Origin: Oxalobacteraceae bacterium OTU3CAMAD1
Lineage (GTDB): Bacteria > Pseudomonadota > Gammaproteobacteria > Burkholderiales > Burkholderiaceae_D
NCBI GenBank assembly: GCA_024123915.1
Contig: CP099650.1
Location: forward strand, 5,208,001-5,272,000
Reading direction: 5' to 3'
Length of the DNA stretch: 64,000 bases
Positions 3,866-21,777 of this stretch are shown here, piece after piece. Below the pieces are notes generated by a model that was not told the DNA's origin, made no database searches, and worked only from the letters and a program-made list of their open reading frames with translations. Position 1 is the first letter of the stretch. The number at the start of each line of letters is the position of its first letter. The translations under genes were made by a program, and so were the position numbers.

Positions 3866-3919
3866 AGTATATCGATGGCGAAATTGAAGTCGAATGGAGA
3901 ATCGCGATGGCATCCATCG
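3866..3919 (-). promoter_or_regulatory. Shared-box promoter 1 (TonB receptor unit)
   Basis: Read on the minus strand: dyad CGATGGATGCCATCG (3905-3919), overlapping box ATC-N9-CAT, -35-like TTCGAC (3889-3894) and a near-consensus -10 TATACT (3866-3871). The order and spacing match six other promoters in the window. It lies about 100 nt before the receptor start. Confidence 0.6.
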
Positions 3920-3966
3920 ACAACGCTAATGCGGCAAGCGGGCGCCTGCAGGCCATGGGCCCCGGC

Positions 3967-5199
3967 TCAGTCGAGGTCGGCGGCGATGCGTTCCAGTCGC
4001 AAGCCATACTGTCGTGGGTCGAGTTCGCGCGACGCGATGCCGCTGGAGAAGGCCGCTGCCGCCACCGCAGGGGCGATGTTGCCCAGCAAACGTTCATCGA
4101 GCAAGCCGGGCACCAGATAATCCCTGCCAAAGCCCGCGCTGTCGCGCGCAAGGCGCGCCAGCGCCAGAACGCAGGCATGCTTCATCTCCCGGTTGATCGT
4201 GGCGGCGCCACAATCGAGCGCCGCGCGGAACAGATAGGGGAAGCACAGCGCGTTGTTGATCTGGTTCGGGTAGTCCGAGCGGCCGGTGGCGACGATCGCA
4301 TGCGGCGCGGCCTGCCGTATCAATTCCGGCAGCAACTCCGGGTCTGGATTGGCGAGCGCGAAGACGATGGGGTCCGCCGCCATCCTGCCGACGTCGTGTT
4401 GCGACAACAGACCCGGCCCGGACAGACCAAGGAACATGTCGGCCCCTTCGATCGCCTCGGACAGGCAGGTCAGGTGGGTGTCCCGCGCCCACCCCAGTTT
4501 TTCCGGGCTCAACGGGCGCCGGGTCGACACGACGCCCTTGCTGTCGCAAACGATCAGGTTGTCGCGGCGCACGCCGAGCTCGACCATCATCTCAAGGCAT
4601 GCCAGCGCCGCCGCCCCCGCGCCCGAACAGACGATCTTGAGCGTGGAGATGTCGCGTCCGGTCAAGGCCAGCGCGTTCAGCAGGCCGGCGCAAACGACGA
4701 TCGCGGTCCCGTGCTGATCATCGTGAAACACGGGGATCGACAGGCACTCGCGCAGGCGCTGTTCGATGTAGAAACATTCGGGCGCCCTGATATCTTCGAG
4801 GTTGATGCCGCCAAAGGTCGGGTGCAGCGCCGCGATGATGGCGATCAGCTTATCCGGGTCGCTTTCATCGATTTCAAGATCGAACGCGTCGATGCCGGCG
4901 AACTTCTTGAACAAGGCCACCTTGCCCTCCATCACCGGCTTGCTGGCCAGCGGACCAATATTTCCCAGTCCCAAGACAGCACTGCCGTTGCTGATCACCG
5001 CGACCAGATTGCCCTTCGCGGTGTACTGGTAGGCCTTGGCGGGGTCCTTGTGAATTGCCAGGCAAGGCGCGGCGACGCCAGGTGAATAGGCCAACGCCAG
5101 GTCGTCCCGTGTCGCCACCGCCTTGGTGACGCGAATGGCGATTTTCCCGGGGTTTTCCCAGGCGTGGTAATGCAACGCTCGTTGCTCAACGGTTGTCAT
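3967..5199 (-). CDS. NAD(P)-dependent malic enzyme, short form
   Basis: 410 residues, start ATG 5199 with AAGGGA upstream. It catalyses oxidative decarboxylation of malate to pyruvate and CO2. The malic N-domain has 'YSPGVA' (Tyr38, 38-43) and EGK (Lys93), the expected catalytic pair, plus 'HDDQHG' (159-164) for metal binding; the NAD-binding domain has GAGAAA (193-198) and ANPDPE. At 410 residues it lacks the phosphotransacetylase-like C-terminal domain of the ~760-residue bacterial MaeB forms. It follows the SMP-30-type gene by 78 nt and probably shares its promoter, so it may drain C4 acids made by the pathway into pyruvate. Cofactor preference cannot be read from sequence alone. Confidence 0.9.
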
Positions 5200-5277
5200 C
5201 TGTTTCCCTTTTATTCAATGAGTGGATCGGCGAACCGGCGTCGTTTCCGGCCGGCGCCGCCGCCTCGGGACGCCGGC

Positions 5278-6309
5278 TTACGCGGCGTCGTTCCAATGGG
5301 CCAGCGGCAAACCCGGGACCGGCGAACGGAAATACGGCAAGCGGTTGCCGGCGAGACTGCCGAGATAGACGGTGCGCAAATCCGGCCCCCCGAAGGTCAC
5401 GCTCGCCATCAGCGGCGCGATGGTGCCGCGGCAATTGCCCATGAGTTCGGGCGTGATGGTGCCGTGCCGATAATGGTCCTCGTAGACCGCCAGCGCGGAG
5501 GGATTGCAATCGTCGAGCAAAGTGAGCACTTCACCGTCGGGCGTGAGCGCGATCAGCCGTTCGTTGAGGATGAGGGTGATCCACAGGTTGCCGAAGGCAT
5601 CGAACGCGAAGCCGTCCGGGAACCCTCCGAGGTCGTCCGGGCCGTAGACCTCGCGCTGGCTGAGCGCGCCGTCGTCGCCCACCCGCAAACGCGAGATTCT
5701 GCGCGCGTTCGTCTCCGCCACGTAAATCCATTCCTCCCTGGCGTCCAGGCGGATCTCGTTGGTGCCCACGAAGCCGTCGGCGACGATGCGTATGCCGCTC
5801 TCGTCGATGAGTCCGATGTAGCCATCCGCCGTGCGCTCGTTGATCGAGCACGTCCATGGCACCCGGCGGGTCGTGACGGTAAACCAGATCCTGCCACGGC
5901 GATCCCTGAGGATGAAATTGGCTTTGCCGAGCGGCTCGCCATCGATGGCGGCGTACAGCGTCCGCGAATCGCCTGCGCGCGTCATGCGCTCGATGGCGTC
6001 GGTGCCGAAGTTGGCGATCAGGATGTCACCATTGGCGGCGAAGGCCAGCCCGTTGGGCAAGGTTCCACCCATCATGAGCCTGGTGGCATCGCCACTATCG
6101 CCGATGCCGGTGCCCGCGTACTGGGTCACCAACTGTTGCTCCCCCGTCGCGGGGTCGATGCGCACCACGCCGCCGCGCGCATCGGCGGTCCAGAGCGTGC
6201 CGTCGCGCTCCGCCAGGATACACTCCGGCCGCTGTAGGTCCTGGCCGAGAAAACGGATGGCGGCCCGGTCGACCTGCCACCCCTTGAGCGGATTCGTTAT
6301 CAATTCCAT
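5278..6309 (-). CDS. SMP-30/gluconolactonase/LRE-family protein
   Basis: 343 residues from the ATG at 6309, which has AGGGG just upstream; a longer frame extends to 6468 but its extra N-terminus is low-complexity basic sequence lying over the mapped promoter. The protein has the repeated blade pattern of a six-bladed beta-propeller ('GTLWTADARGG', 'PNGLAFAANGDILIANFG', 'FPDGFAFDAFGNLWIT'), the signature of the SMP-30/gluconolactonase family, whose members are mostly metal-dependent lactonases. No signal peptide is seen, so it is cytoplasmic. In this cluster it may open a lactone intermediate. It precedes malic enzyme in the same unit and has its own copy of the shared promoter box. Confidence 0.85.
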   Translation of the reverse strand: MELITNPLKGWQVDRAAIRFLGQDLQRPECILAERDGTLWTADARGGVVRIDPATGEQQLVTQYAGTGIGDSGDATRLMMGGTLPNGLAFAANGDILIANFGTDAIERMTRAGDSRTLYAAIDGEPLGKANFILRDRRGRIWFTVTTRRVPWTCSINERTADGYIGLIDESGIRIVADGFVGTNEIRLDAREEWIYVAETNARRISRLRVGDDGALSQREVYGPDDLGGFPDGFAFDAFGNLWITLILNERLIALTPDGEVLTLLDDCNPSALAVYEDHYRHGTITPELMGNCRGTIAPLMASVTFGGPDLRTVYLGSLAGNRLPYFRSPVPGLPLAHWNDAA

Positions 6310-6370
6310 TGCTACCCCTGTTTGCGATCGTTGTCGGTATTGTCGCGGCCGAAAAAGGCCACCGGAAACG

Positions 6371-6425
6371 AGCGTAATGGAAGACTTTAAGCGCGGGAAA
6401 TTGATTCGAGCGATACGGCCCATCG
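6371..6425 (-). promoter_or_regulatory. Shared-box promoter 2 (SMP-30/malic enzyme unit)
   Basis: Read on the minus strand: dyad CGATGGGCCGTATCG (6411-6425), box ATC-N9-AAT, -35-like TTTCCC (6395-6400), 18-nt spacer, -10 TACGCT (6371-6376). Same layout as the other six sites; about 60 nt from the -10 to the start codon at 6309. Confidence 0.55.
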
Positions 6426-6498
6426 CATTCCGAAATACCGGCCGCCGCGCGCCACTGCGGCCCGACACACCGCGCCGCGGACGCCAACGGCGATTTTT

Positions 6499-7539
6499 CT
6501 ACTTGCCAACCCAGGGCGAACGCGCCCCCGGCGCGCCGAGATTGACCATGATGTGCTGCCCCTGGACCTGGTTGTCATACACCCGGTGGATCTCGGCGAC
6601 GGCGCCGGTTGCCGCCATCGCCCGCAACGCCGGCGCGGTCTTGCCATCGCGGCGCTGCTGCGCCAGCAGCTTCTTGTAGGGCGCCAGCATTTCATCGGGG
6701 ACGAAAGCCGATTCGGTCGGCGTGGTTGCCAGGTAGGGCTCGCTTTCACCATGCACGACCGCCTGGCTGACCACGATGCCCTGCACTTCGTCGACGATCT
6801 GCGTGCGCGCCTTGCGATCGGTGGGACGGAACGGCGGGCTGCCGCACGGAATCGGCACCGTGCCATCGGCATTGGCCCCGTTGCCGCCCGCCGGCGCTTG
6901 CCCGGCCACTTCCTTTGCTACCTCCGGATGCTCCGCCACCACCTTGCCGTTCTCCATCAGGACACAGGCTGGCGCGGCCTTCAAACCATCGATGCGGGTG
7001 TCGAAAATACTCCGCCCCTGGCGCAATAAAACCGAACGCTTGGGCAGGCGACTCGCCTCCACCGTTTTCGTCCACTCGGCTGGAATATCCTTCATCATGC
7101 TGCCGCTATACTGGAATCCACCCTGGCCGCGCGAACGGTTCTCGAACAGCTCCAGCTCCGCGACCTTGCGGCCGTTCGCTTTCAGCCTGCCATACAAGAG
7201 AGTTGAATACTTCCCTTCTTCAAGCGTGGCAATCATGAACAGTTGTTGCGACGCGGGGTCGATGATGTAGAAACGGTCGGAAACGCCGGTGGCGGTCTGC
7301 CACGCCACCATCATGTTCAACGCCGAGGCGACCGAGTTCTCGGTGGCCGCGTATTCTTGCGCCACCGGCACCCTGGACGGGTCGCGCGCCGAGATCGAAT
7401 CGAGCACCAGGTCGGCCAGCCCCTTGAGGCAGGCCCGGTCGCAACTACCGGCATCCTGGGCCAGTACGCCGCCCGCCAGGAACAAGCCGGCCGTCCCCAA
7501 TACGGCGGTGGCGATGCGCAATGTCATTCTACGTTTCAT
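6499..7539 (-). CDS. Exported protein of unknown function
   Basis: 346 residues from ATG 7539, which has AGAGGA 6 nt upstream (a TTG at 7545 is too close to that site). Residues 1-28 form a signal peptide ending VLAQ. The mature protein starts with a CDRAC pair of cysteines and has a further lone cysteine pair (about 190 and 235), compatible with periplasmic disulfides. I recognise no family; a 'DEVQGIVVSQAVVHG' segment and a C-terminal 'HIMVNLGAPGARSPWVGK'-like end suggest an NTF2-like half, but this is weak. It stands alone downstream of a shared-box promoter and so belongs to the same regulon. The role is unknown; periplasmic handling of the substrate is a guess. Confidence 0.7.
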   Translation of the reverse strand: MKRRMTLRIATAVLGTAGLFLAGGVLAQDAGSCDRACLKGLADLVLDSISARDPSRVPVAQEYAATENSVASALNMMVAWQTATGVSDRFYIIDPASQQLFMIATLEEGKYSTLLYGRLKANGRKVAELELFENRSRGQGGFQYSGSMMKDIPAEWTKTVEASRLPKRSVLLRQGRSIFDTRIDGLKAAPACVLMENGKVVAEHPEVAKEVAGQAPAGGNGANADGTVPIPCGSPPFRPTDRKARTQIVDEVQGIVVSQAVVHGESEPYLATTPTESAFVPDEMLAPYKKLLAQQRRDGKTAPALRAMAATGAVAEIHRVYDNQVQGQHIMVNLGAPGARSPWVGK

Positions 7540-7569
7540 GTTCAATCCTCTTTTTCTGTGAAGAATGCA

Positions 7570-7623
7570 AGCTTACCAGCGTAATATCGGCCATCGAATG
7601 GTTTTGGACGATGGGAAGTATCG
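7570..7623 (-). promoter_or_regulatory. Shared-box promoter 3 (exported hypothetical)
   Basis: Read on the minus strand: dyad CGATACTTCCCATCG (7609-7623), box ATC-N9-CAT, -35-like TTCGAT (7593-7598), -10 TAAGCT (7570-7575, 17-nt spacing). It lies in the gap between the hypothetical gene and the divergent LysR gene, so it could also be where the regulator acts on its own promoter. Confidence 0.5.
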
Positions 7624-7762
7624 GAAAAAGTCATGGGGAAATCGATACGCGCCGGGGCCGGCGCGCCGCGCATACCCGGAGGGCGGCGGCCATCGTTTCG
7701 CGCGATGGCGGGCATGGGAAAATACGATGGTCGACCGCGCCCGAGTGTTTACACTGCACGCC

Positions 7763-8677
7763 ATGCGCTATCACCGACTCGACCTCAATCTGTTGCCCGC
7801 CCTCCGCGCTTTGTTGACGGAAAAAAACGTCACCCGCGCCGGCGATTCCTTGCACGTAACGCAGTCCGCCATGAGCGGCATCCTGGCGCGGCTGCGCGAA
7901 TTTTTCGACGACCCGCTGATCGTGTCGGTCGGGCGCAAAATGGAGTTGACGCCGCTGGCCGAAAGCCTGGTGGACAAGGTCAACGACCTGCTGGTGCAAG
8001 TCGATTCGACGCTGGCATCCCGGCCCGATTTCTTGCCCGCGAATTCGCAGCGCCACTTTTCGATCGTCTCGTCCGACTACACGGTGTCGGTACTGCTGCT
8101 CGATGTGCTGCGCCGGTTGCATGTGGAGGCGCCCAACGTCACCATCGCCATCCGCCAGCCTGGCGACGCCACCTTGCCGGACCTGGAGGCGGGCGACCTG
8201 GACTTTCATATCTCGCCGATGGGGCAGCTGTCCGACAACCACCCTTCCGCGGTGCTGTTCGAGGATTCGTTCTGCGCCGTGGTCGATCGCGGCAACGACC
8301 GCGTCGGCGACAGCCTGACCGTGGAACAATATCTTTCTCTCAGCCACGTCGGCTTCGAATACAAGGGCCTGCCGATGTTCGACCGCTGGTTCGCCAGGAT
8401 GCACAGCGACCGCCGGCGCGACGTGAGCGTCGGCCAGTTCAACTTGCTCGCGCCGATGGTGGTCGGCACGCAACGCGTCGCCACGCTCCATACCCGGCTT
8501 GCGATGCGCGCTTGCGAGCTGCTGCCGGTGCGCATGGTCCAGCTGGAATTTGAAACGCCGCGCTTCGCCAACCTGATCCAGTGGCATCGCTATCGCGATC
8601 TCGATCCAGGCAGCATTTGGCTGCGCGACAAGATCATCGCGTGCGCGCTGGCCATGCCGCCGCTGCCCCGTCCCTAG
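7763..8677 (+). CDS. LysR-type transcriptional regulator (NodD/NahR-like)
   Basis: 304 residues. The start at ATG 7763 (MRYHRLDLN) is chosen because it aligns with the start of the paralogue at 8714-9625; a candidate ATG at 7727 with GGGA upstream would add 12 residues, and the frame is open back to 7565. The N-terminal winged helix-turn-helix (about 5-62, 'VTQSAMSGILARLREFF') is followed by a substrate-binding domain. The closing 'LIQWHRYRDLDPGSIWLRDKI' pattern is typical of the NodD/NahR branch, usually activators answering to aromatic inducers. It is divergent from the hypothetical gene. A likely controller of the seven shared-box promoters, as all carry a T-N11-A LysR box. Confidence 0.9.
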   Translation: MRYHRLDLNLLPALRALLTEKNVTRAGDSLHVTQSAMSGILARLREFFDDPLIVSVGRKMELTPLAESLVDKVNDLLVQVDSTLASRPDFLPANSQRHFSIVSSDYTVSVLLLDVLRRLHVEAPNVTIAIRQPGDATLPDLEAGDLDFHISPMGQLSDNHPSAVLFEDSFCAVVDRGNDRVGDSLTVEQYLSLSHVGFEYKGLPMFDRWFARMHSDRRRDVSVGQFNLLAPMVVGTQRVATLHTRLAMRACELLPVRMVQLEFETPRFANLIQWHRYRDLDPGSIWLRDKIIACALAMPPLPRP

Positions 8678-8713
8678 CAGGGCGACAGTCATCGGCCACT
8701 TTTCTGAGGCACG

Positions 8714-9625: not shown

Positions 9626-9721
9626 GGCAGTGGAAACCAGGGAGGCACCCGTCGGGGCAATCCGCTAGTTTGCCACATTTCACGGCGCGTCCCGCCAAAG
9701 CGCCGGCGGCCAGACACTTCC

Positions 9722-10900: not shown

Positions 10901-10910
10901 GGCTATCTTT

Positions 10911-11870
10911 CTATTCAAGGCGGCCGGCCGCTTGCGCCGTCGCGTTATGGATGAGTTGTTCGAGGCTGCCGTCGTGCCGGAAACCGACCCGCTGCGCCGC
11001 CGAGGCGTCGAGCGGCGGCTGGCGGCCGAATCCGGCCTCCAGCCGCTCGTCCGGCTCGTAGCTCACCAGGTCACGGCGGTCGTCGCCGTACACGCGTGCC
11101 AGCCCCTCGACCAGTTGCGCGACCGTCAGCCGCAACACGGGCAGCGTGTAGTCGCGCCGCGCCGCCGCCAGCGCCGGCGCCAGCGTGGCCGCCGTCAGCA
11201 GATTGTCGATGCAGCAACCGAGCGACATCCACCAGGCAACGGCTTGGGGGGACACCGGACAAATGAAGCGTTCGCCGGCGGAAAGGCGCCAAAAGATATC
11301 GCTCATGAATGCCGACAGCAGCCCGGACGGCCCCTGCGGGCGCGCGACGATGCCCGGCAAGCGCACGATGCGGCCATCGACGAAGCCGCGCCGGCTATGG
11401 TCCCGGACCAGGATTTCGCCGGCCAGCTTGTGCGCGCCGTAGCTCAGGTGCGGCCGCATCGGCGTGGCGTCGTCGATGCTGTCCGGCAGTGGCGCACCAT
11501 AGACCGCGATCGTGCTCGAGAAAACGAATACCGGCGCGACGCGCTGCAGACGGGCCCGTTCAAGCAAGGCGATGGTGGCCCCGAGATTGACTTCCAGCCC
11601 CAGTTCGAACTGCTGCTCGGCCCGACCACCTGGAATGCTGGCCAGGTGAAAGATCACATCGGTCGCCTGCGCGAACGCGCGCTCGAGCAGGCCGGCATCG
11701 GCGATGCTGCCCTCGCACCGGCGCACACGGGCGTCGATGGGCGCTGCGTCGAAATGGATGTCGAGCAAGGTCAGCGTCTCCACCCGGCGCCGGCCGAGAC
11801 CGCTGTCGAGCAGGCGCCGGGACAGTGCCTTGCCGACAAATCCGTTGGCCCCGGTGATCAGCACGTTCAT
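10911..11870 (-). CDS. NAD-dependent epimerase/dehydrogenase (D-erythronate dehydrogenase-like)
   Basis: 319 residues from ATG 11870, which overlaps the stop of the FAH-family gene by four bases (ATGA); the open frame runs on to 12239 but is out of phase with that real gene. An extended-SDR protein: Rossmann motif TGANGFVG (6-13), 'FVFSSTIAVYG', and the catalytic pair in YGAHK. The sequence resembles the DenD group, which oxidises D-erythronate at C2, but a role on another hydroxy acid or on a sugar nucleotide cannot be excluded. The tight coupling to the FAH and hydrolase genes suggests it oxidises a hydroxyl on a ring-cleaved or side-chain intermediate. Confidence 0.85.
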   Translation of the reverse strand: MNVLITGANGFVGKALSRRLLDSGLGRRRVETLTLLDIHFDAAPIDARVRRCEGSIADAGLLERAFAQATDVIFHLASIPGGRAEQQFELGLEVNLGATIALLERARLQRVAPVFVFSSTIAVYGAPLPDSIDDATPMRPHLSYGAHKLAGEILVRDHSRRGFVDGRIVRLPGIVARPQGPSGLLSAFMSDIFWRLSAGERFICPVSPQAVAWWMSLGCCIDNLLTAATLAPALAAARRDYTLPVLRLTVAQLVEGLARVYGDDRRDLVSYEPDERLEAGFGRQPPLDASAAQRVGFRHDGSLEQLIHNATAQAAGRLE

Positions 11871-12865: not shown

Positions 12866-12904
12866 GGTATCAATCTCAAGTCGGAGGTGGTTGGAAGGAT
12901 GGCG

Positions 12905-13669
12905 CTATTGCAGCGGACGGCCGCCGTCGACCGGGATCACGGCGCCCGTCGTGAAGGTCAGATGGGTGGCCAGCGCCACCACCGCCAGCGCCACCTCGCG
13001 CGGGTCGGCCAGCCGCCGCAATGGCGTGCGCCGCGCCTGTTCGTCGCGCCAGGCCGGGTCCATCGATTTGACGAACTCGGTGCCCGACAAGCCGGGCGAC
13101 ACGGAAACGACACGCACCGCCGGCGCCAGCGCGCGCGCCAGCGATTTGGTCATGTTGTCGACCGCCGCCTTCGAAGCGCAATACATGACATTGCTGCCCA
13201 TCGCGGTCACCGCCGCGATCGAGGAAACATTGACCACCAGGCCGGCGCCGCCGCCGGCGAGCAGCGTGCGGAAAGCGCGCACGGCGGCAAACGGACCGCG
13301 CACATTGGTGGCCAGGATGCGGTCGATGAGTTCATCGTCGAGTCCGTCAAGGTCGGCGTGCGGCACAAAACCGGTGGTGCCGGCGCAGTTGACCAGGATG
13401 TCGCAGCGCCCGTACAACTGCCCGATGCGCGCGGCCAGGTCCGCGAGCGCGGCACTGTCGGTCACGGCCGCGGGCAGCGCGGCGTGGGCCAGGCTGGCCG
13501 GGGGCAGCGCCGCGACCACGGCGCAGGCGCGCTCGGCCGAGGTGTGGTAGCCCACCACCACGGCGGCGCCCTGGCGCGCCAGTTCGTGGCAGATCGCCGC
13601 GCCCATGCCGCCGGCGCCGCCGGTCACGACGGCGACCTTGCCGTCAAGTGCTCGATGCGCAGTCGTCAT
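12905..13669 (-). CDS. SDR-family oxidoreductase
   Basis: 254 residues, start ATG 13669, only 4 nt after the stop of the HisD-like gene. Classical short-chain dehydrogenase: cofactor motif TGGAGGMG (16-23), NCAG at 94-97, Ser149 and the Tyr163-x3-Lys167 pair in YCASK, so all catalytic residues are present. It oxidises or reduces a secondary alcohol or ketone with NAD(P)H. One of three SDRs in the locus; it sits between the HisD-like dehydrogenase and the FAH protein, suggesting consecutive oxidation of an alcohol before hydrolysis. Cofactor choice is not evident. Confidence 0.9.
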   Translation of the reverse strand: MTTAHRALDGKVAVVTGGAGGMGAAICHELARQGAAVVVGYHTSAERACAVVAALPPASLAHAALPAAVTDSAALADLAARIGQLYGRCDILVNCAGTTGFVPHADLDGLDDELIDRILATNVRGPFAAVRAFRTLLAGGGAGLVVNVSSIAAVTAMGSNVMYCASKAAVDNMTKSLARALAPAVRVVSVSPGLSGTEFVKSMDPAWRDEQARRTPLRRLADPREVALAVVALATHLTFTTGAVIPVDGGRPLQ

Positions 13670-13673
13670 GGCG

Positions 13674-14957
13674 TCAGGCCGCTTTCTTCAGGCGGCGCAC
13701 GCGGATGTCCGCCTGCTCCTTGTGGCCGGAAAAGCGTTCAAGCGCACACAGGCGCGAGCAGTACTCGCCGATCATCACCGACGCCTCGTCGGTCAGGATG
13801 CGCTGGTAGGTATGGGTCTTGATGAATTTCCCCACCCACAGGCCGCCGGTGTAGCGGCCCGCGCCCATGGTCGGCAAGGTGTGGTTGGTGCCGATCACCT
13901 TGTCGCCGTACGAGACGTTGGTGCGGTGGCCGAGGAACAGGCCGCCGTAATTGGTCATGCGTTCGAGGAACCAGTCCGGATCGTCGGTCATGACCTGGAC
14001 ATGCTCGGAGCAGATGCGTTCGGATTCGCGCAGCATTTCCTCGCGGGTGTCGCACAGGATGATCTCGCCATAGTCGCGCCAGGCCACACTGGCGACCGGC
14101 GCCGTGTCGAGCCGCGCCAGCACCGCGTCGATGGCGCCGGGCAGCGCTTGCGCGATCGCCCGGCTGGTGGTCACGCAGACCGCCGGCGAAGTCGGTCCAT
14201 GCTCGGCCTGGCCGAGCAGATCGACCGCCACCAGTTCGGCGTCGACGCTGTCGTCGCAAATGACCATGGTTTCGGTGGGACCGGCGAACAGGTCGATGCC
14301 GACACGGCCGAACAACTGGCGCTTGGCCTCGGCCACGTAGGCGTTGCCGGGACCGACGATCATGTCGACCGGCGCGATATTTTCGGTACCGATCGCCATC
14401 GCCGCCACGCCCTGGACGCCGCCCATCACATAGATCTCGTCGGCGCCGGCCATGGCCATCGCGGCCACGATCTCCGGCGACGGCTTGCCGTCGAACGGCG
14501 GGGCGCACGCGATCACGCGCTTGACGCCGGCCACCTTGGCCGTCAGCACGCTCATGTGCGCGGACGCCAGCAGCGGATATTTACCGCCTGGGATGTAGCA
14601 GCCGACCGAATTGACCGGGATGTTCTTGTGGCCAAGTACAACCCCGGGCAATGTTTCAACTTCCACATCGTGCAGCGACGCCAGTTGCGCCTGCGCGAAG
14701 CGGCGGATCTGCGTCTGCGCGAACGTGATGTCTTCGATCGCCTGCGGACTGAGCGAGTCGATGCAGGCCTGGATTTCCTGCTGCGTCAGGCGCAGCGAGG
14801 GGGGATTCCATTTGTCGAATTTTTCCGAGTAGGCGCGCACGGCCTGCTCGCCGCGCTGTTCGACATCGGCGATGATGCTCTCGACGATGCTGCGCACTTG
14901 CGTATCGAGTTCGGCTTTCGCCTCGACTGATTTTCCCTGCTTGAGATACTGGATCAT
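13674..14957 (-). CDS. HisD-family dehydrogenase (sulfopropanediol dehydrogenase HpsN-like)
   Basis: 427 residues, start ATG 14957. It belongs to the histidinol dehydrogenase fold, which makes zinc-dependent, NAD-linked four-electron oxidations of an alcohol through the aldehyde to the acid. The zinc ligands expected from HisD are in place: Gln250 and His253 (LGQAEHG), Asp352 and His412, and the catalytic Glu318-His319 pair (SEHV). It has no histidine-biosynthesis neighbours, and motifs such as 'CYIPGGKYP' and '[14 protein letters not shown]' resemble HpsN-type paralogues that oxidise (sulfo)diols. In this operon it likely turns a primary alcohol side chain into a carboxylate. The substrate is unknown; a sulfonate role has no other support here. 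Confidence 0.88.
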
Positions 14958-14987
14958 GGTGTCACCTGGTTGAAATGGTTGATTGAA

Positions 14988-15731
14988 TTAAAAGACGACG
15001 CCGCCATCGACGTTCAACACCTGGCCGGTCATAAAGCCGGCCTCGTGCGATGTCAAGAACGCCAGCGCGCCGTTCATGTCCTCGGGTACTTCGGTACGTT
15101 TGATCAGTTGGCGTTCGCGTACGGCGGCAAACAGCGCCTCGGGCAGTTCGCGCGCCGCGCTCTCGGTGCGCGTCAGCCCTGGTGAAATCCCATTGACCGT
15201 CACCCCCGTGCCGCCCAGCTCCGCCGCCAGCGCCCGCACCATGCCCATCGAGGCCATCTTGCTGGTGGTGTACGAGAAAAAGCCTGGCATGGGCGTCGAC
15301 GTGGTGCTGGAAATGACGTTGACAATGCGGCCGAACCGGCCCTCCACCATCGATGGCGCGAACGCCTGGCTCAGCAGGAACGCCGCTTCCACGTTGATGG
15401 CCATGACCTGTCGAAACTCGGTCAGCGACAATTGCGCGAGCGGGTTGAGCGGAATAAACGCGGCATTGTTGACCAGGATGTCGCAGCTGCCGAAACGCGC
15501 CAGGACGGCGGCGGCGAACGCCCGCACCGCCAGCTCGTCGGCGAGGTCGCAGACCACGCCCAGGCACTGGCCGCCCAGGTCCGCGATTAGTCCTTCGAGT
15601 TCGGCGCACGGGCGCAGGTCCGCGATCGCGATGTCGCAGCCCTCCGCGGCCAGCCGCAGCGCGAAGGCGCGGCCGATGCCGGAAGCGCCACCGGTCACGA
15701 CCGCGACACGGCCTTGATGATTTTTTTTCAT
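14988..15731 (-). CDS. SDR-family oxidoreductase
   Basis: 247 residues, start ATG 15731 with AGGAACC overlapping the stop of the upstream FAD oxidoreductase 8 nt away. Classical SDR: TGGASGIG (13-20), NNAA (88-91), Ser141/142 and Tyr154-x3-Lys158 (YTTSK) are intact, and the C-terminus ends 'NVDGGVVF'. It acts as an NAD(P)-linked alcohol dehydrogenase or ketoreductase. Second gene of the operon, 30 nt before the HisD-like gene, so it probably acts early on the substrate or on an alcohol released by the flavoprotein. Confidence 0.9.
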   Translation of the reverse strand: MKKNHQGRVAVVTGGASGIGRAFALRLAAEGCDIAIADLRPCAELEGLIADLGGQCLGVVCDLADELAVRAFAAAVLARFGSCDILVNNAAFIPLNPLAQLSLTEFRQVMAINVEAAFLLSQAFAPSMVEGRFGRIVNVISSTTSTPMPGFFSYTTSKMASMGMVRALAAELGGTGVTVNGISPGLTRTESAARELPEALFAAVRERQLIKRTEVPEDMNGALAFLTSHEAGFMTGQVLNVDGGVVF

Positions 15732-15739
15732 GGTGGTTC

Positions 15740-17632
15740 CTAGGTGTTGTTGGTGGGGGCCTTGGCCGCCTTGCGGCGGCGAAACGGCAGCGACATCAGG
15801 AAAGGCAGCGTGCGCAGGCCGAGCAGCTTGAGGCCGGAGCGGGCGGCGGCGCCATCGAGTTTGGCGACCATGGGCATGGTGCCGAACGACTTACCGGTGA
15901 TCACCAGGGAGTCGCCGTCGCGCCGGATCTCGCTGACCGTCATCAGTTCAGCGTTGTCGGCGCCATACAAAGTCATGCCCGAGGTGTCGGCCCGCGCCGG
16001 CGCGGCGCCGTTGGCCAGCACAATGGTCCGGCTGGCGCCGTCGGCGCCGTTGATCAGGCGCTCGAAATCCATGCCAAGGAATTCGAACATCTTGATCGCG
16101 GTCGCGCGACCGGCGCCGAACACGCCGCCGCCGGGATGCATGAACGGGCCGACCAGGTACAGGCGCTCGATGCCTGGCACGCCGAACTGCCCCAGGTCGG
16201 GGGTGGGCCGGTGGCTGAGCGTCTGGTAGAAATACGGCGCCGCTCCGTGCACGTCGCCGCGCACCATGCTGTTGGGCGAACCGCGTTCCAGATCGAGCGG
16301 CGAACAGATCGTGCGCGCGATGATGTTTTCCGGCGTCAGGTTGGCGACAAATTTGCGGTAGGCCTGCAGGCTCAGGTCGCCGATCTTTTCCTTGATCTCG
16401 TCCCAGCGGCCGGCGCCGCCTTCGGCGAGATCGTACGGGGCGAAAGTAATGCCATGGAACATGCCCTTCCCCGCTGGAACGCGGGTTGGATCGCCGTAGC
16501 TTTCATCGCCGCCGGCGATCAAACGGCGCGGGGTGATGCGCCCGCGCCGCAGACCGTCGAAGTCGTCAAGCATGTCGGCCAGGCTGCTGGTGCTGACCAT
16601 CTCGAGCATCGTCGCCTTTTCCACCTCCTCGCCGGCGTAGAATTTCGCCTGCTGGCGCAGGTCGTAGTGGCTGACCATCAGGCTGAACGGCGCCAAGGCC
16701 ACCTTTTCGGCGCGTTTGAGGATCGGCTCCTTGATGCCGGTGACGAACTGGCGCAGACGGTGCGGATGGATGGCGCCGATCACGCCGTCGCACGCCAGTA
16801 TTTGCTCGCCGCTGGCCAGTTCGACGCCTTTCGCCACCCCGCCCGCGACCACGATCCGGGTCACTTCGCTGTTGCAGCGCACTTCGCTGCCGTAATGCTC
16901 GATGCAACGCACCAGCGCTTCGCTGAGCTTGCCGCTGCCGCCTTCGGGCTGCGACACGCCGTACGTGTGGATGATGCCGGGCATCAGGAAAATGCCCATG
17001 CCCGTACCGAGTTCATCGGGCATTTGCAGATTTTCCGACACCAGCCGCAGCAGGTGGATCTTGACCTTGTCGCTCTCGAACAGTTCGTTGGCGATGTCGA
17101 GGCAGCTACGCTGCATGTAATTGAGCATCTCGCGGCCCTCGTCGTTCTGGTCGAGCATCGCGATCAGACCACCCAGCGGGGCCGGTGGCACGTACAGGCC
17201 GGACATAAACATGGGCAACAGGCGCATGCTGGCCTTGGCGAACGTGCGATAGGCCTCGGCATCGCGCGCCGAAATTCTGGCGATGGCCGCACAGGTCCGG
17301 TCCAGATCCTTGTACGTGATCAACGTACTCTGGTCGTCGAAGATCGTCGCGTGCGGCACCTCGGAATAGTTGTATTTGAGGCCGAAGCGCGAGAGCAGAC
17401 CCAGTTCGTCCTGGCGCAGCATCGGGTTACCCTGGATCATGATATGCACGCTGGAGTGCTCGTCGTGCCAAAAGCCGGGGGTGTTGAGTTCGCGCGTTGA
17501 CACGCCGCCGCCGTACCAGGCCTTGCTTTCCAGGACCAGCACGCGCTTTCCGCCCTTGGCCAGATAGGCGGCCGCCACCAGGCTGTTGTGCCCCGCGCCC
17601 ATGGCGACGATATCGAATTCGGGATTGCTCAT
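15740..17632 (-). CDS. FAD-dependent oxidoreductase, phytoene-desaturase/PYROXD2-like
   Basis: 630 residues from ATG 17632 with AGGAAG upstream; the longer open frame to 18214 is rejected because it would run through the Rieske gene and the promoter. The N-terminal dinucleotide fold reads 'MGAGHNSLVAAAYLAKGG' (about 10-27) followed by LVLE; the C-terminal part has 'GPFMHPGGGVFGAGR', the usual closing FAD motif of the phytoene-desaturase/PYROXD2 group. A tail of about 90 residues after that motif is extra and ends in basic residues. It would desaturate or oxidise an alicyclic or ring compound. First gene of the seven-gene operon, under a promoter that overlaps the end of the Rieske gene. Confidence 0.88.
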   Translation of the reverse strand: MSNPEFDIVAMGAGHNSLVAAAYLAKGGKRVLVLESKAWYGGGVSTRELNTPGFWHDEHSSVHIMIQGNPMLRQDELGLLSRFGLKYNYSEVPHATIFDDQSTLITYKDLDRTCAAIARISARDAEAYRTFAKASMRLLPMFMSGLYVPPAPLGGLIAMLDQNDEGREMLNYMQRSCLDIANELFESDKVKIHLLRLVSENLQMPDELGTGMGIFLMPGIIHTYGVSQPEGGSGKLSEALVRCIEHYGSEVRCNSEVTRIVVAGGVAKGVELASGEQILACDGVIGAIHPHRLRQFVTGIKEPILKRAEKVALAPFSLMVSHYDLRQQAKFYAGEEVEKATMLEMVSTSSLADMLDDFDGLRRGRITPRRLIAGGDESYGDPTRVPAGKGMFHGITFAPYDLAEGGAGRWDEIKEKIGDLSLQAYRKFVANLTPENIIARTICSPLDLERGSPNSMVRGDVHGAAPYFYQTLSHRPTPDLGQFGVPGIERLYLVGPFMHPGGGVFGAGRATAIKMFEFLGMDFERLINGADGASRTIVLANGAAPARADTSGMTLYGADNAELMTVSEIRRDGDSLVITGKSFGTMPMVAKLDGAAARSGLKLLGLRTLPFLMSLPFRRRKAAKAPTNNT

Positions 17633-17678
17633 CACTGCTTCCTGTCTCTGTTTTCTGTTGTTGATCGACACCCAAGCG

Positions 17679-17733
17679 ATCTTACGAGTGTGCCGTGAAT
17701 GAGAAAAATCGTTTATTGCGATGCCAGGCATCG
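17679..17733 (-). promoter_or_regulatory. Shared-box promoter 4 (seven-gene operon)
   Basis: Read on the minus strand: dyad CGATGCCTGGCATCG (17719-17733), box ATC-N9-GAT, -35-like TTTTTC (17703-17708), 18-nt spacer, -10 TAAGAT (17679-17684). From the dyad onward it is strikingly like promoter 5 ('ATAAACGATTTT' in both). It overlaps the last codons and stop of the Rieske ferredoxin gene, so the operon has an internal start besides any read-through. Confidence 0.65.
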
Positions 17734-18066
17734 CAGATGGCGGCGCGCGATCAACACGTCGCCCTGTTGGACCCTGGCCGGGATGCCGGTCAGCGAACTG
17801 CCCTTGCACGGCCCGTCGGTGCACACGCCGCTGCCGATATCGAAGCGCGCGCCGTGCGCATAACACATGATCTGGCGGCCGTCGTGCGACAGGAACCGGT
17901 GCCGCATGTACTCCATCCGGCTGTCGTTGTGCGGACAGCGATTGAGATAGACATGCACCTGCCGGCCGCGCCGCACGGCCAACACGGTGTCGGCCCCCGA
18001 TTGGCAGGGGTCGAAGCCGCGCGCGGCGCCGTCGGCGATGTCGTCGAGACTGCAAAGGCGATACAT
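17713..18066 (-). CDS. Rieske-type [2Fe-2S] ferredoxin
   Basis: 117 residues from ATG 18066, directly after the VOC gene stop (2 nt between). The Rieske cluster ligands are Cys44-x-His46 (CPH) and Cys68-x2-His71 (CYAH), so the domain is intact and fills the whole protein, as in small Rieske ferredoxins. It carries electrons to an oxygenase or accepts them from a reductase; no Rieske oxygenase alpha subunit is found in the window, so its partner is elsewhere or is the flavoprotein or monooxygenase next door. Its gene is hidden inside a longer shadow frame, and its 3' end carries the operator for the next operon. Confidence 0.88.
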   Translation of the reverse strand: MYRLCSLDDIADGAARGFDPCQSGADTVLAVRRGRQVHVYLNRCPHNDSRMEYMRHRFLSHDGRQIMCYAHGARFDIGSGVCTDGPCKGSSLTGIPARVQQGDVLIARRHLRCLASQ

Positions 18067-18068
18067 GC

Positions 18069-19004
18069 TCAGTGCTTGTCGCCGCTCGGGAACCAGGGCT
18101 CGCGCAGCGTGAACAGGAACACCTGCGAAGTGTCTTCGGCCGCCTTGATTTCGCGCGCCACCCAGCTGTCGTCGTGCACATCCATGTCGGCGTCGTACTC
18201 GATCGTTCCGCCAAGCGGCGAATTGAAGTACCAAAACCAGTTCGAGCCGAAGATATGACGCCCGGGTCCCCAGAATGTCTTGTAGCCCTTGCCGGAAAAG
18301 CGCTGGCCGGCGCGCAGCAGCTCGTCCGCGCTGCCGACGTGGAACGTGAAGTGATTGATCCCCTTGAGGAAGCCGGGCGCCTCGATCAGGAACAGCGTAT
18401 GGTGCTCCCGGCTGCCCGCCGGGCGCAGGAACGGCCCCGTGCCGGTGAAACGGTCCGTCACGCGAAAGCCCAGGCGTTCGACATAAAATTTCTCGGCGCG
18501 CGCCGCATCCGGCACGAACAGCACCACGTGCGACAGGCTGTGCGGGATGACCGGCGCCGCGTTGGCGTCCGCGGCCACCTGGTTGGCGGGCCGCTGGGGT
18601 GGTTGTCCCGGCACATTGACCAGTACCGCCGGCGCCTCGTACGGACGGCGCACGCTGACCTGGAAGCCGATGGTCAGGCCGATATCGTCGACGCAGCGCA
18701 GCGAACCGTCGGCGCGCACCTCGACCGGGCGGTCCCTGGACAACTCGGCGCCGATCGCCGACAGCGTGGCGGCGTCGCGCACGCCGTAGATGACGGCGCG
18801 GATGTTGGGCGACCGGCCGATCGCGGGCGGCAGTGCCGGATCGCTGTCGTGGCGCACTTCGACCGAAGTGCCGTCGCGCGCCTCGAACACGCCATGGCTG
18901 TCGGACGCGGCGATCCTGACCAGGCCGTAGTCCTCCAGGCATCGGTTGCAGGCGGCGACATCGTCCACGCCGAATACGAGGGAATCGGGACCGAGAATAT
19001 CCAT
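18069..19004 (-). CDS. VOC-family extradiol-dioxygenase-like protein
   Basis: 311 residues from ATG 19004 (GGAAA upstream); the frame is open to 19148 but the extra part overlaps the upstream gene. It has two VOC modules as in two-domain extradiol dioxygenases; the C-terminal module carries a full metal triad, His159 (SLSHVVLF), His218 (INHFTF) and Glu269 (GTIEYD), expected for Fe(II) or Mn(II). The N-terminal module lacks the ligands. The family opens catechol-type rings next to one hydroxyl using O2. Its place between the FAD monooxygenase and the Rieske ferredoxin fits hydroxylation followed by ring cleavage. Ring specificity is unknown. Confidence 0.87.
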   Translation of the reverse strand: MDILGPDSLVFGVDDVAACNRCLEDYGLVRIAASDSHGVFEARDGTSVEVRHDSDPALPPAIGRSPNIRAVIYGVRDAATLSAIGAELSRDRPVEVRADGSLRCVDDIGLTIGFQVSVRRPYEAPAVLVNVPGQPPQRPANQVAADANAAPVIPHSLSHVVLFVPDAARAEKFYVERLGFRVTDRFTGTGPFLRPAGSREHHTLFLIEAPGFLKGINHFTFHVGSADELLRAGQRFSGKGYKTFWGPGRHIFGSNWFWYFNSPLGGTIEYDADMDVHDDSWVAREIKAAEDTSQVFLFTLREPWFPSGDKH

Positions 19005-19027
19005 GTTTGTTTTTCCGAAAAAGTCGG

Positions 19028-20149
19028 TCAGATCGGCGCCGCGAGCGCGGCCTGCGATTGACGCATTAATAGAGAGAACGCCTGTTGCGAATCGGGCGAA
19101 CGTTCCAGCTCGCCGAGGCGTACGGAGTTTTCGACGATCATCCGGCATCGCGGCAGGCGACGCCGCGTGTAGGCCAGCAAGGCGTCGTTGAGCGGCACCT
19201 CGCGGTCCAGTTCTTCGGCCAGCACCAGGGCGTCCTCGACCGCCGCGCCGGCGCCGGAGGCGAGGTGCGGCGTGGTCGCATGGACCGCATCGCCGAGCAG
19301 CACGACCCGCCCGCAGTGCCAGGGCGTGGTCAGCAATAATTTTTCCAGGGGGCGGTACAGTATCCGCGACGACCCGTCCAGGCCGTCCCGGATGGCGCCG
19401 ATCGGGCCGCCGAATTCGGCCAGCGCCTCCGCCAGCACCCTTGGCCAGGTCGACTGTTCTATGAAAGGGTTGTCCGGCACATGCTGGGTGAAGAACAGAT
19501 ACATCTCTTCCTGGGAAATCGGATTGACGCCCGCCTTCGCGGTACGCCCCATGAAAATGTGCGGCCGGTCGATGACGGGCGGACGCGGCAGCACGGCGCG
19601 CCAGCAGCCCTGGCCGGTGAATTGCGGCACCGCCGCATCCGGAAACTGGTGCTGGCGCACCTTCGAGTACAAGCCGTCGGCGCCAATCAGCAAGTCGTAT
19701 CGGCCCGTGCTGCCGTCACTGAAGGTCACCCGGACACCGTGCGTTCCCTGCTCGATCGCGCCGAAGGTCAGCCCAAGGCGAACCTTCACGCCGGCGGCCA
19801 GCGTGGCTTGCGACAGGATGCGGGCCAGGACGGGGCGCAAGATGCCCCCGCCGCCGGGGATGGCCGGACCGCCCACGCGCGGTGTCGGCAACTCCATCAG
19901 CACCGCGCCGTCCCCGTCGCACAGCCTGACACCGTCCGCGCAGTAGCCTTGCGCCAGGATTTGCTCGATGACGCCGAGCTGGGCGAACGCGCGCAGGGTC
20001 GGTCCGCTGATGGTGATGCCGGCCCCGTGGACTTGCCAGTTCGCGTCGAGTTCCACCAGGTCGACGTCGGCGCCGCGCTGGCGCAGGCTGATCGCCGCGG
20101 CCATGCCGCCGATGCCGCCACCAACGACCAGTATGTTCTTGTGTTTCAT
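19028..20149 (-). CDS. FAD-dependent aromatic-type monooxygenase (PHBH/salicylate hydroxylase fold)
   Basis: 373 residues from ATG 20149 with GGGGAG just upstream; a longer frame to 20188 starts before the mapped transcription start region and is less likely. It shows the class A flavoprotein hydroxylase motifs: GGGIGG (10-15), the DG motif 'GADGLYSKVR' and the GD motif 'LLGDAVHATTPHLASGAG'. It would hydroxylate a ring with NAD(P)H and O2, making a diol for the VOC dioxygenase 23 nt downstream. First gene of the monooxygenase/VOC/Rieske unit, divergent from the MFS transporter. The substrate is not deducible. Confidence 0.9.
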   Translation of the reverse strand: MKHKNILVVGGGIGGMAAAISLRQRGADVDLVELDANWQVHGAGITISGPTLRAFAQLGVIEQILAQGYCADGVRLCDGDGAVLMELPTPRVGGPAIPGGGGILRPVLARILSQATLAAGVKVRLGLTFGAIEQGTHGVRVTFSDGSTGRYDLLIGADGLYSKVRQHQFPDAAVPQFTGQGCWRAVLPRPPVIDRPHIFMGRTAKAGVNPISQEEMYLFFTQHVPDNPFIEQSTWPRVLAEALAEFGGPIGAIRDGLDGSSRILYRPLEKLLLTTPWHCGRVVLLGDAVHATTPHLASGAGAAVEDALVLAEELDREVPLNDALLAYTRRRLPRCRMIVENSVRLGELERSPDSQQAFSLLMRQSQAALAAPI

Positions 20150-20190
20150 GATCTCCCCGTCAGGTCTACAGTTCGCTGCGTATGTCAAGC

Positions 20191-20245
20191 ATCGTAGCGA
20201 CAGGCCAAACTTTTTGAAAATCGTTTATCCCGATGGTATCCATCG
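20191..20245 (-). promoter_or_regulatory. Shared-box promoter 5 (monooxygenase unit)
   Basis: Read on the minus strand: dyad CGATGGATACCATCG (20231-20245), box ATC-N9-GAT, -35-like TTTTCA (20215-20220), 18-nt spacer, -10 TACGAT (20191-20196). About 42 nt separate the -10 from the start at 20149. It faces away from promoter 6 in the same gap. Confidence 0.65.
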
Positions 20246-20295
20246 TAATATCCGGTAGTTCGTCCATGCGTGCCCATGGCTGGCATTCGATACGC

Positions 20296-20350
20296 CAATG
20301 GCCGGCATCAGCATTCCCGATTTCCTAAGCCGATGCGGATTTCCTACTAT
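20296..20350 (+). promoter_or_regulatory. Shared-box promoter 6 (MFS transporter)
   Basis: Plus strand: degenerate dyad CAATGGCCGGCATCA (20296-20310), box ATC-N9-GAT, -35-like TTTCCT (20321-20326), 18-nt spacer, -10 TACTAT (20345-20350). The dyad centre is 65 bp from that of promoter 5, so the regulator could serve both directions. Confidence 0.55.
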
Positions 20351-20379
20351 CTGTACACAGCACATTCATTGGAGACATC

Positions 20380-21636
20380 GTGACACCCCACCCATTCCAG
20401 CAACAACCGACCGCCGCCACAGTTACGGGCGTCAAGCCCGCGCCGGACACCGATGCGCGCTCGCCGCGCCTGATACACGCTATCATTTTGCTGGTCACCA
20501 GTGGCCTGACCGTTTTGGTATCGGCCATCCTCGGACCCAACATTCCAATTCTGCAGGCCCATTTCGCCACGCAAATTTCGAATGCGGACCAATGGGTGCC
20601 GCTGGCCGTGTCGATTCCGATCGGCGTCTTCGGCATTTGCGCCATCTTCATCGGCGGCCTGGCCGATCGCATCGGCCGCAAGAACCTGCTCGTGTACTCG
20701 ACGCTGTTCTACGCCATCCTGGGCACCATGCCCTTCTACATCGACAATTTCTGGGCCATCTTCGCCAGCCGGGTGGCGCTGGGCGTGTTCGAAGCGGCAC
20801 TGATGACCGCCTCGACCACCATGATCGGGGACTATTACACCGGACTGAAGCGCGAACGCATGATGTCGCTGCAAACCACCGTATCGTCCGCGACGGCCAC
20901 CGTCTTCGTGGCCGTCGGCGCCGCCGCCGGAACGCTGGGGTGGAACGCGCCGTTCGCCATCTACGGCATCGCGTTGTTGCTGTTCCCGTTGATGGTCATT
21001 TTCCTGTGGGAGCCCAAGCCGTCGGGCGCGGCCGCCGTCACGTCCGCGGCCGGCATCGGGGTCGCGGAAAAGCCGTTTGAGCCACGCGTCGTTGCGCTGA
21101 CCTGCGGCATCGGCTTTTTCACCGGCATCGCATTTATGGTTGTGCCGATCAATCTCGCGGTCCTGTACGTCGGCGCCGGATGGCCCCAAGCGGTCGGGAC
21201 GGGTTACACCCTCAACAGCGCCGGCGTCATGCTCGGAACATTCGTCTTCGGCTGGATACTTGCCGGCCGTGTGAGCGTGGCGACGCAACTGTTTGTGAGC
21301 GCCGCGCTCGCGGCCCTGGGCTTTGTCCTCATGGGATCGGCCGCCACGTCCAACGCCTTGACGGTCGGCGCGGTCGTCAACGGCGTGGGATGCGGTCTAT
21401 TGCTGCCAACGATCGTCACCTGGAACATGCGCTCGCTGCCCTTCTCTCGGCGCGGTTTCGGCACCGGCGCCTTCCAGTCGGCGCTCATGCTGGGCATGGC
21501 CGTCAGTTCGCTCGTCGTCGTCACCATGGGAAATATCATGCAATCGCGCGCCGCCGCCGTGGACCGCATCGGCGTGATCCTGGCGCTGGCCGCTTTCGTG
21601 GCGCTGCTGGCGGCGTTCAAGTGTCGTGGCAAGTGA
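20380..21636 (+). CDS. MFS transporter
   Basis: 418 residues from a GTG at 20380 with GGAGA 5 nt upstream. Twelve hydrophobic segments are visible, the first at about 25-50, with the MFS signature between helices 2 and 3 ('GGLADRIGRKNLL'). An inner-membrane secondary transporter, probably proton-driven, importing the catabolic substrate or exporting a product. It is divergent from the monooxygenase unit, has its own shared-box promoter and is closed by a strong hairpin terminator. The sequence gives no firm substrate class. Confidence 0.9.
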   Translation: MTPHPFQQQPTAATVTGVKPAPDTDARSPRLIHAIILLVTSGLTVLVSAILGPNIPILQAHFATQISNADQWVPLAVSIPIGVFGICAIFIGGLADRIGRKNLLVYSTLFYAILGTMPFYIDNFWAIFASRVALGVFEAALMTASTTMIGDYYTGLKRERMMSLQTTVSSATATVFVAVGAAAGTLGWNAPFAIYGIALLLFPLMVIFLWEPKPSGAAAVTSAAGIGVAEKPFEPRVVALTCGIGFFTGIAFMVVPINLAVLYVGAGWPQAVGTGYTLNSAGVMLGTFVFGWILAGRVSVATQLFVSAALAALGFVLMGSAATSNALTVGAVVNGVGCGLLLPTIVTWNMRSLPFSRRGFGTGAFQSALMLGMAVSSLVVVTMGNIMQSRAAAVDRIGVILALAAFVALLAAFKCRGK

Positions 21637-21651
21637 GAAACCGGCGATGAC

Positions 21652-21687
21652 AAAGCCCCTTGGCCACAACCAAGGGGCTTTTTTTTA
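21652..21687 (+). terminator. Rho-independent terminator after the MFS gene
   Basis: Perfect 12-bp stem AAAGCCCCTTGG (21652-21663) with CCAAGGGGCTTT (21670-21681), 6-nt loop, and a run of T to 21686. It lies 15 nt after the MFS stop and separates that gene from the next promoter. Confidence 0.9.
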
Positions 21688-21722
21688 TGATGTCCGGCCA
21701 TGGCCCGCTGTATTCGAAACGC

Positions 21723-21777
21723 CGATGCGGTGCATCGCCAAATATCATTTTTCGAACCGACCGGGGAGCGCTATTCT
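21723..21777 (+). promoter_or_regulatory. Shared-box promoter 7 (SDR/PepSY/TonB unit)
   Basis: Plus strand: perfect dyad CGATGCGGTGCATCG (21723-21737), box ATC-N9-CAT, -35-like TTTTTC (21748-21753), 18-nt spacer, -10 TATTCT (21772-21777). Expected transcription start is near 21784, which rules out the upstream start codon at 21700 for the next gene. Confidence 0.65.

Follow-up and report, generated by a model that had tools for sequence, protein, structure and literature searches.

Nod-box-type elements and two NodD-like regulators in a putative catabolic gene cluster of an Oxalobacteraceae bacterium

A gene cluster in a 64,000-nucleotide stretch of Oxalobacteraceae bacterium OTU3CAMAD1 (contig CP099650.1, positions 5,208,001 to 5,272,000; hereafter the window) carries nod-box-type elements in front of its genes, together with the genes of two NodD-like LysR-type regulators, LysR1 and LysR2. 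We consider it very likely (probability about 0.85) that the promoters of this cluster share one nod-box-type operator, read by one or both of these regulators, and that the genes behind it form a catabolic regulon. A preliminary description of the window had reported seven promoters built on CGATG-N5-CATCG-like dyads and tied them to a LysR-type regulon. The seven-site observation is confirmed, and the regulon is the best-supported reading because the element recurs with the same -10 spacing in orthologous clusters and is missing from background DNA. Its size and extent are revised: there are at least nine boxes instead of seven, and they run leftwards past 3866, where the series had been taken to begin. 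The two additional boxes lie at 595–634 on the minus strand, before a SnoaL-like gene starting at 504, and at 7692–7731, before LysR1.

The perfect dyad CGATG-N5-CATCG occurs four times in the window (3905, 17719, 20231 and 21723), always at sites that had already been named, while the other three deviate from it at one (6411, 7609) or two positions (20296). All seven dyads lie where they were claimed to lie and read on the correct strand. All the -10 hexamers assigned to them are there; counted from the base at which the dyad begins, they lie at 48–49 nt, and a further 29–64 nt separate the -10 from the start codon. The claimed T-N11-A box, in the form ATC-N9-[GCA]AT, is found at all seven sites, and AT stands at both ends of the proximal N11 in ten of ten window rows, as in the T-N11-A box of LysR-type regulators. 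The hint that ATC-N9-GAT is the NodD form of this box was right and can be extended, since the whole nod-box skeleton is present. As quoted in PMC4782375, the published nod-box search pattern is ATC-N9-GAT-N7-ATC-N9-GAT, with the spacing AT-N11-AT-N7-AT-N11-ATTTT. The CGATG dyad is the inner half of this skeleton, not an element apart from the T-N11-A box as had been proposed.

Nod boxes of S. meliloti pSymA (two exact, one with two mismatches) align gap-free with the window sites. This comparison predicted that another AT should stand 11 nt ahead of the dyad, in a position that the scoring matrix described below does not cover. The predicted AT is found in eight of the ten window rows (one row being a second reading of 7703) and, at the exact spacing, in all 19 sites from orthologous loci, where the best of 39 other offsets gives 4 of 19. 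These 19 sites are the 25 matrix hits in loci L081–L093 minus four near-copies in L087 and two second readings (one in L088; one in L086, at 7736 on the minus strand). A figure of nine out of nine for paralogue loci is selected and not evidence, its rows having been picked by hand: they comprise eight of the 14 matrix hits in L061–L080 plus one more, whereas six hits that looked weaker or odd were omitted (three from L071 and one from each of L075, L078 and L079). The full four-arm skeleton is found at six window sites; the box at 7692 has GATG instead of GATT.

The rarity of the element was measured with a matrix and with a skeleton pattern. The matrix covers 30 nt and was trained on ten sites from other genera only; its background consists of 20 stretches of 20 kb spread over the same genome (400 kb), and its threshold of 20 was set after the background scores were known. 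Seven matches reach this threshold in the window (17704, 20216, 6396 and 594 on the minus strand; 21723, 7703 and 20296 on the plus strand), all between 594 and 21752, and none does so in the background, where the maximum is 19.5 (one match at 18 or above, six at 16 or above, 14 at 12 or above). The skeleton pattern, AT[CTG]-N9-[ACG]AT-N7-AT[CTG]-N9-[ACG]ATT, matches six times within positions 1–26000 of the window (595–634, 3891–3930, 6397–6436, 7595–7634, 20285 and 21712) and is absent from the other 38 kb and from the 400-kb background. It matches 22 times in 12 ortholog loci, 12 times in 20 paralogue loci and seven times in three rhizobial stretches. Twelve variants with the spacing shifted by 1–3 nt give no match in the window, three in all in the background (1 and 2), and 1 and 1 in orthologues as well as in paralogues. 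Five of the seven sites first described score above 20 (17704, 21723, 20216, 6396 and 20296), and none of the seven fails both tests.

In the whole 7.48-Mb genome, GAT-N7-ATC-N9-VATTTY occurs at eight places, five in the cluster and three elsewhere in coding frames, and never when read backwards. With the spacing one base short it has no match in this genome and matches in 180 of 392 family genomes; the matches listed are mostly recurring coding-like words (a histidine-kinase box, judged by eye) and bear on the shifted spacing only. These coding matches in relatives speak for the view that the dyads arose by chance or from codon usage, since CGATG and CATCG are frequent in GC-rich coding DNA, and that a pattern-seeking reader picked out seven of them. 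So does the dyad-based pattern CGATG-N5-CATCG-N9-AT, which matches 140 genome places (64 forward, 76 reverse) when one mismatch is allowed; the 15-nt dyad alone is therefore a poor genome-wide matrix, and the dyad-only scan was rejected as too loose. Such an origin is nevertheless extremely improbable, as it is already contradicted by the foreign-trained matrix, the skeleton and the spacing-shift controls, and by the distal AT in 19 of 19 ortholog sites. Moreover, six of the 12 exact places in the genome (four dyads) belong to this cluster, and five of the six outside it are clearly within coding frames, L001 being the ambiguous one, whereas the cluster boxes all sit in front of genes.

LysR1 and LysR2, correctly recognised before as paralogues inside the region, share 55.6% identity, and both have an N-terminal HTH_1 domain and a C-terminal LysR substrate-binding domain over the Pfam cut-off. 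Identity to the R. tropici NodD whose gene lies beside NodA is 37.8% for LysR1 and 33.7% for LysR2, and 50.7% and 42.7%, respectively, over the first 75 residues, where the DNA-binding part lies. The recognition helices are near-identical (QSAMSGILARLR or QSSMSGMLARLR in LysR1/LysR2 versus QPAMSAAVARLR in NodD). In the maximum-likelihood tree, LysR1, LysR2 and 12 orthologues form one clade (100/100), which stands beside the rhizobial NodD clade (100/99) inside a larger NodD-like group (97/98); the deeper forks are weak. LysR1 and LysR2 are thus not members of the rhizobial NodD clade. NodA was not found in a search of the genome that recovers it in two of two rhizobial plasmids. Full-length solved relatives of LysR1 are 1uth, 1utb, 2uye and 5ae4 (E about 1e-28 to 1e-27); these entries, labelled only as LysR-type regulatory protein, probably represent DntR.

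A handful of database proteins, including one of Duganella guangzhouensis, are related to LysR1 at 74–84% identity (among the best 120 of 794 matches). Within the family, 41 of 392 genomes have a match at E 1e-60, none above 47% identity outside the bacterium's own genome; therefore 20 paralogue regions were used from this source and the orthologues were taken from a scan of genome contigs. The latter gave 13 loci at 50–74% identity (L081–L093, from Duganella, Sphaerotilus, Dyella, Ideonella, Rubrivivax, Derxia and several metagenome-assembled genomes), all holding homologues of window genes. In nine of the 13 (with the near-identical L086 and L087 counted once) the element lies in the gap between LysR and the gene of the SMP-30/gluconolactonase-like protein (SGL), or the gene in the SGL position, and is followed at a fixed distance by a TA(G/C)(C/G)AT-like -10. 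The TA of the -10 is at its fixed place in 17 of 20 ortholog sites, a count that omits the four L087 near-copies and the L088 second reading from the 25 matrix hits. The skeleton has 25 hits in the 13 loci, and 22 of them are oriented to a homologue of a cluster gene: the distance is -1 to 306 nt for 21 and 518 nt for the remaining one, a weak and doubtful case (the VOC gene of L082); placement inside genes was judged against cluster-gene homologues only. Behind these boxes are SGL in eight loci, the CrtO-like gene in four (L086 and L087 being near-copies), a TonB receptor in three, the MFS transporter in three and, once each, the FAD monooxygenase, the epimerase and SDR2. In 12 of the 13 loci the LysR gene has a skeleton no more than 1.5 kb away.

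This recurrence also bears on whether the regulator that reads the boxes is encoded elsewhere, as either another NodD-like paralogue or a member of another family that uses CGATG-N5-CATCG, with LysR1 and LysR2 having other targets. The genome does have further NodD-like paralogues, at 3553810 (42%) and 3853164 (40%), and the dyad, a neat palindrome of 15 nt, resembles sites that other families use as well. We nonetheless regard a distant regulator as improbable, since the box keeps within 1.5 kb of LysR1 relatives in those 12 loci of several genera, usually in the LysR/SGL divergent gap, conservation passes the dyad on both sides with LysR-type T-N11-A spacing, and the paralogue locus L077 of the same genome has no such box. 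IclR-, GntR- and MarR-type readings of the palindrome were set aside because conservation reaches the T-N11-A arms on both sides.

The skeleton is also seen beside NodD-like LysR genes on other branches of the tree: in family loci L032, L033 and L038, in L056–L059 (one genus, g27), and in Azospirillum sp. B510 (L145:9850), where its neighbours are DUF1302, DUF1329, prolyl-oligopeptidase, VOC, Rieske, FAD-oxidoreductase and SMP-30 genes. Two distant Vibrio loci score for the skeleton as well; their DNA is AT-richer and these matches may be due to chance.

Several points weigh against nod-box-type operators read by LysR1 and LysR2. The rhizobial inner spacer and tail (CAAACAATC, ACCAATC) are not conserved, the best window site having nine mismatches at 31 fixed positions, and the published 46-position nod-box pattern with the CAAACAATC spacer has no window match with three or fewer mismatches. 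The sites at 3890 (16.3) and 7594 (13.6) score inside the matrix background range; both nonetheless have the full four-arm skeleton. Conversely, 17704 and 20216 lack the distal AT and rest on the matrix. The box before LysR1 has no well placed -10, the sole -10-like hexamer at the usual place ending 7 nt before the LysR1 start, and is therefore probably an autoregulatory site. Three of the 25 ortholog boxes have no cluster gene behind them, and of 29 family loci only seven have a skeleton at most 1.5 kb from the LysR gene (22 without). By matrix and by skeleton scan, no such box is found in L094 and L095, which encode a LysR of 40–41% identity and homologous monooxygenase, VOC, hydrolase and epimerase proteins; the skeleton scan likewise finds none in L077, the genome's own second paralogue locus. 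The operator is therefore not universal among NodD-like regulators. The preliminary description would have abandoned the regulon had matrix matches been equally dense in unrelated regions; over 400 kb the regulon withstands this comparison, except that the matrix on its own does not set 3890 and 7594 apart from background. As the published sequence pattern is not matched and the regulators fall outside the rhizobial clade, we do not file the element as a strict nod box. Judged by its sequence, the operator is a nod-box-type element outside nodulation that would work as NodD and the nod box do.

All boxes of the cluster sit in front of genes and nine transcription units are preceded by one. The features are as follows (coordinates, strand, description; matrix, the score of the box).

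1–504, minus: start of a second secreted SnoaL-like gene (274 aa) that continues beyond the left edge of the window; PF13577, E 1.2e-08
595–634, minus: nod-box-type element, full skeleton; -10 TAATCT at 569–574; before the SnoaL-like gene starting at 504; matrix 23.5
682–1503, minus: secreted SnoaL-like protein, 273 aa; PF13577; by spacing the likely second gene of the TBDR1 unit
1573–3801, minus: TonB-dependent receptor 1 (TBDR1)
3891–3930, minus: nod-box-type element, perfect dyad 3905–3919; -10 TATACT at 3866–3871; before TBDR1; matrix 16.3
3967–5199, minus: malic-enzyme-like protein, 410 aa
5278–6309, minus: SMP-30/gluconolactonase-like protein (SGL); PF08450
6397–6436, minus: nod-box-type element; -10 TACGCT at 6371–6376; before SGL and malic enzyme; matrix 24.4
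6499–7539, minus: secreted protein, 346 aa; no Pfam match
7595–7634, minus: nod-box-type element; -10 TAAGCT at 7570–7575; before the 346-aa secreted protein; matrix 13.6
7692–7731 (second reading from 7688), plus: nod-box-type element directly before LysR1; matrix 22.4
7763–8677, plus: LysR1, NodD-like LysR-type regulator, 304 aa
8714–9625, minus: LysR2, LysR1 paralogue, 303 aa
9722–10900, minus: alpha/beta hydrolase; nearest solved relative 2,6-dihydroxy-pseudo-oxynicotine hydrolase (C-C hydrolase)
10911–11870, minus: NAD-dependent epimerase/dehydratase-like protein; PF01370
11867–12865, minus: fumarylacetoacetate-hydrolase (FAH) family protein
12905–13669, minus: SDR oxidoreductase 1
13674–14957, minus: histidinol-dehydrogenase-family (HDH, HpsN-like) protein
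14988–15731, minus: SDR oxidoreductase 2 (SDR2)
15740–17632, minus: CrtO-like FAD oxidoreductase
17705–17744, minus: nod-box-type element without distal AT, perfect dyad 17719–17733; -10 TAAGAT at 17679–17684; before CrtO and the following genes; matrix 31.7
18069–19001, minus: VOC/glyoxalase-type extradiol dioxygenase-like protein
19028–20149, minus: FAD-dependent aromatic monooxygenase-like protein
20217–20256, minus: nod-box-type element without distal AT, perfect dyad 20231–20245; -10 TACGAT at 20191–20196; before the monooxygenase; matrix 27.4
20285–20324, plus: nod-box-type element; -10 TACTAT at 20345–20350; before the MFS transporter; matrix 21.8
20380–21636, plus: MFS transporter
21712–21751, plus: nod-box-type element, perfect dyad 21723–21737; -10 TATTCT at 21772–21777; before SDR3, PepSY and TBDR2; matrix 30.6
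21820–22638, plus: SDR oxidoreductase 3 (SDR3)
22689–23222, plus: PepSY-associated membrane protein; PF03929
23306–25624, plus: TonB-dependent receptor 2 (TBDR2)

Among solved structures, the HDH-family protein is closest to sulfopropanediol 3-dehydrogenase (E 2.6e-117; best HisD 1.7e-77) and is probably a catabolic diol dehydrogenase. Strict-cut-off searches of solved structures gave no match for the monooxygenase and the CrtO-like protein. The gene of the 346-aa secreted protein sits between SGL and LysR1, whereas D. guangzhouensis (L081) has SGL and LysR1 as immediate divergent neighbours; the gene looks as if it had been inserted in one lineage or lost from the other. Farther to the right, at 32281–32498, there is a tandem array of period 41 (5.3 copies) with a GC-rich, hairpin-like unit containing a TTTTT run.

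In the usual layout of LysR-type activation there are two T-N11-A boxes, the second lying over a poor -35, and a -10 at a fixed distance. We propose that the operator here, AT(C)-N9-GAT-N7-ATC-N9-(G/C)ATT, likewise offers two T-N11-A boxes that LysR1 and/or LysR2 would bind. Recognition would take place at the distal box (ATC-N9-GAT). Its proximal counterpart (ATC-N9-GATTTY) would overlap a poor, pyrimidine-rich -35, with the -10 at a fixed 47–49 nt downstream from the inner dyad. Loaded with a small inducer, a regulator tetramer would then recruit RNA polymerase. Close spacing and common strand suggest the later members of each unit; counted in this way, the nine boxes would bring about 19 structural genes under one signal, probably along with LysR1 and LysR2, and the box before LysR1 may serve autoregulation. 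Uptake would fall to the two TonB receptors and the MFS transporter, and ring opening to the FAD monooxygenase, the VOC dioxygenase, the C-C hydrolase and the FAH hydrolase. The CrtO-, HpsN- and SDR-type oxidoreductases and the lactonase-like protein would deal with the rest of the substrate. The inducer is probably the plant phenolic that the cluster breaks down or an intermediate of its breakdown, and should be the substrate or an early product.

The substrate is probably a plant-type aromatic compound, by analogy with studied clusters. The FAD-monooxygenase/VOC/C-C-hydrolase trio of flavonoid degradation is present in the cluster, and a FAD monooxygenase and a VOC/glyoxalase dioxygenase near a NodD-like gene are also the fde-type arrangement. 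In the parts of the sources available, the NodD-like FdeR activates naringenin degradation and protects 60 bp that take in clustered T-N11-A boxes together with the -35 (PMC10799723), while a monooxygenase, a glyoxalase and a DHPON-hydrolase-like protein occur jointly in fde/ifc, two of the ifc trio being likened to fdeE and fdeC (PMC11069340). Since the ifc cluster has the monooxygenase, VOC and DHPON-hydrolase-like trio as well, a flavonoid-type phenolic is plausible; the CrtO-, HpsN- and SMP-30-like enzymes, though, suggest additional chemistry. There is close to an even chance that the boxes are real NodD-like operators but the substrate is not a flavonoid-type plant phenolic; a lignin-derived or polyketide aromatic that carries a diol side chain would be an example. 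The HpsN-like enzyme would suit primary diol oxidation, and neither it nor the CrtO-like and SMP-30-like proteins are among the fde/ifc genes named in those parts of the sources. The trio and the NodD-like regulator, on the other hand, are common to the two flavonoid clusters as described there.

We tentatively suggest, at somewhat short of even odds, that the nod box did not originate with nodulation: it would be an old operator through which NodD-like regulators of Beta-, Gamma- and Alphaproteobacteria control the breakdown of plant phenolics, and rhizobia would have adopted the regulator along with its operator. The order of the deep branches is weakly supported (83/71) and does not on its own reveal a direction. 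If the suggestion is true, the window is an elaborate example, in which nine boxes would feed one catabolic regulon in a genome without detected NodA. The cluster offers a concrete, testable answer to the question of what NodD-like regulators and nod boxes do outside nodulation. The boxes in 13 ortholog loci and several related groups are a data set on the origin of the nod box. A local regulon of about 20 genes for uptake, ring opening and oxidation would allow inducer and substrate to be sought together, and the cluster offers natural NodD-like sensor/promoter pairs. Openly licensed literature on nod-box or NodD-like control of catabolic genes outside rhizobia yielded FdeR and nothing closer, and a search on the odd gene combination of the cluster yielded no paper with five of six terms.

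Compared with NodD and the nod box of rhizobia, the cluster shares a LysR-type regulator with a near-identical recognition helix, the operator skeleton ATC-N9-GAT-N7-ATC-N9-GAT(TT) with identical spacings, and several boxes per regulator. It differs in the inner spacer and tail of the box, in the separate protein clade, and in having catabolic genes in place of nod genes, with no NodA found by the search. FdeR and the fde (naringenin degradation) operon of Herbaspirillum seropedicae were compared with the cluster by description. As far as the available parts of PMC10799723 and PMC11069340 describe them, they too combine a NodD-like regulator with an aromatic (flavonoid) degradation cluster, a FAD monooxygenase with a glyoxalase-type dioxygenase, and more than one T-N11-A box over the -35. 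The account given there has a single intergenic control region, versus nine boxes here, and CrtO-, HpsN-, SMP-30- and TonB-type genes are not among the fde genes named. The isoflavone catabolism cluster ifc of Variovorax sp. V35, as presented in the same portion of PMC11069340, resembles the cluster in its FAD monooxygenase (IfcA), glyoxalase (IfcB) and DHPON-hydrolase-like protein, and differs from it in the cupin proteins IfcD1/D2, of which none was seen in the cluster described here.

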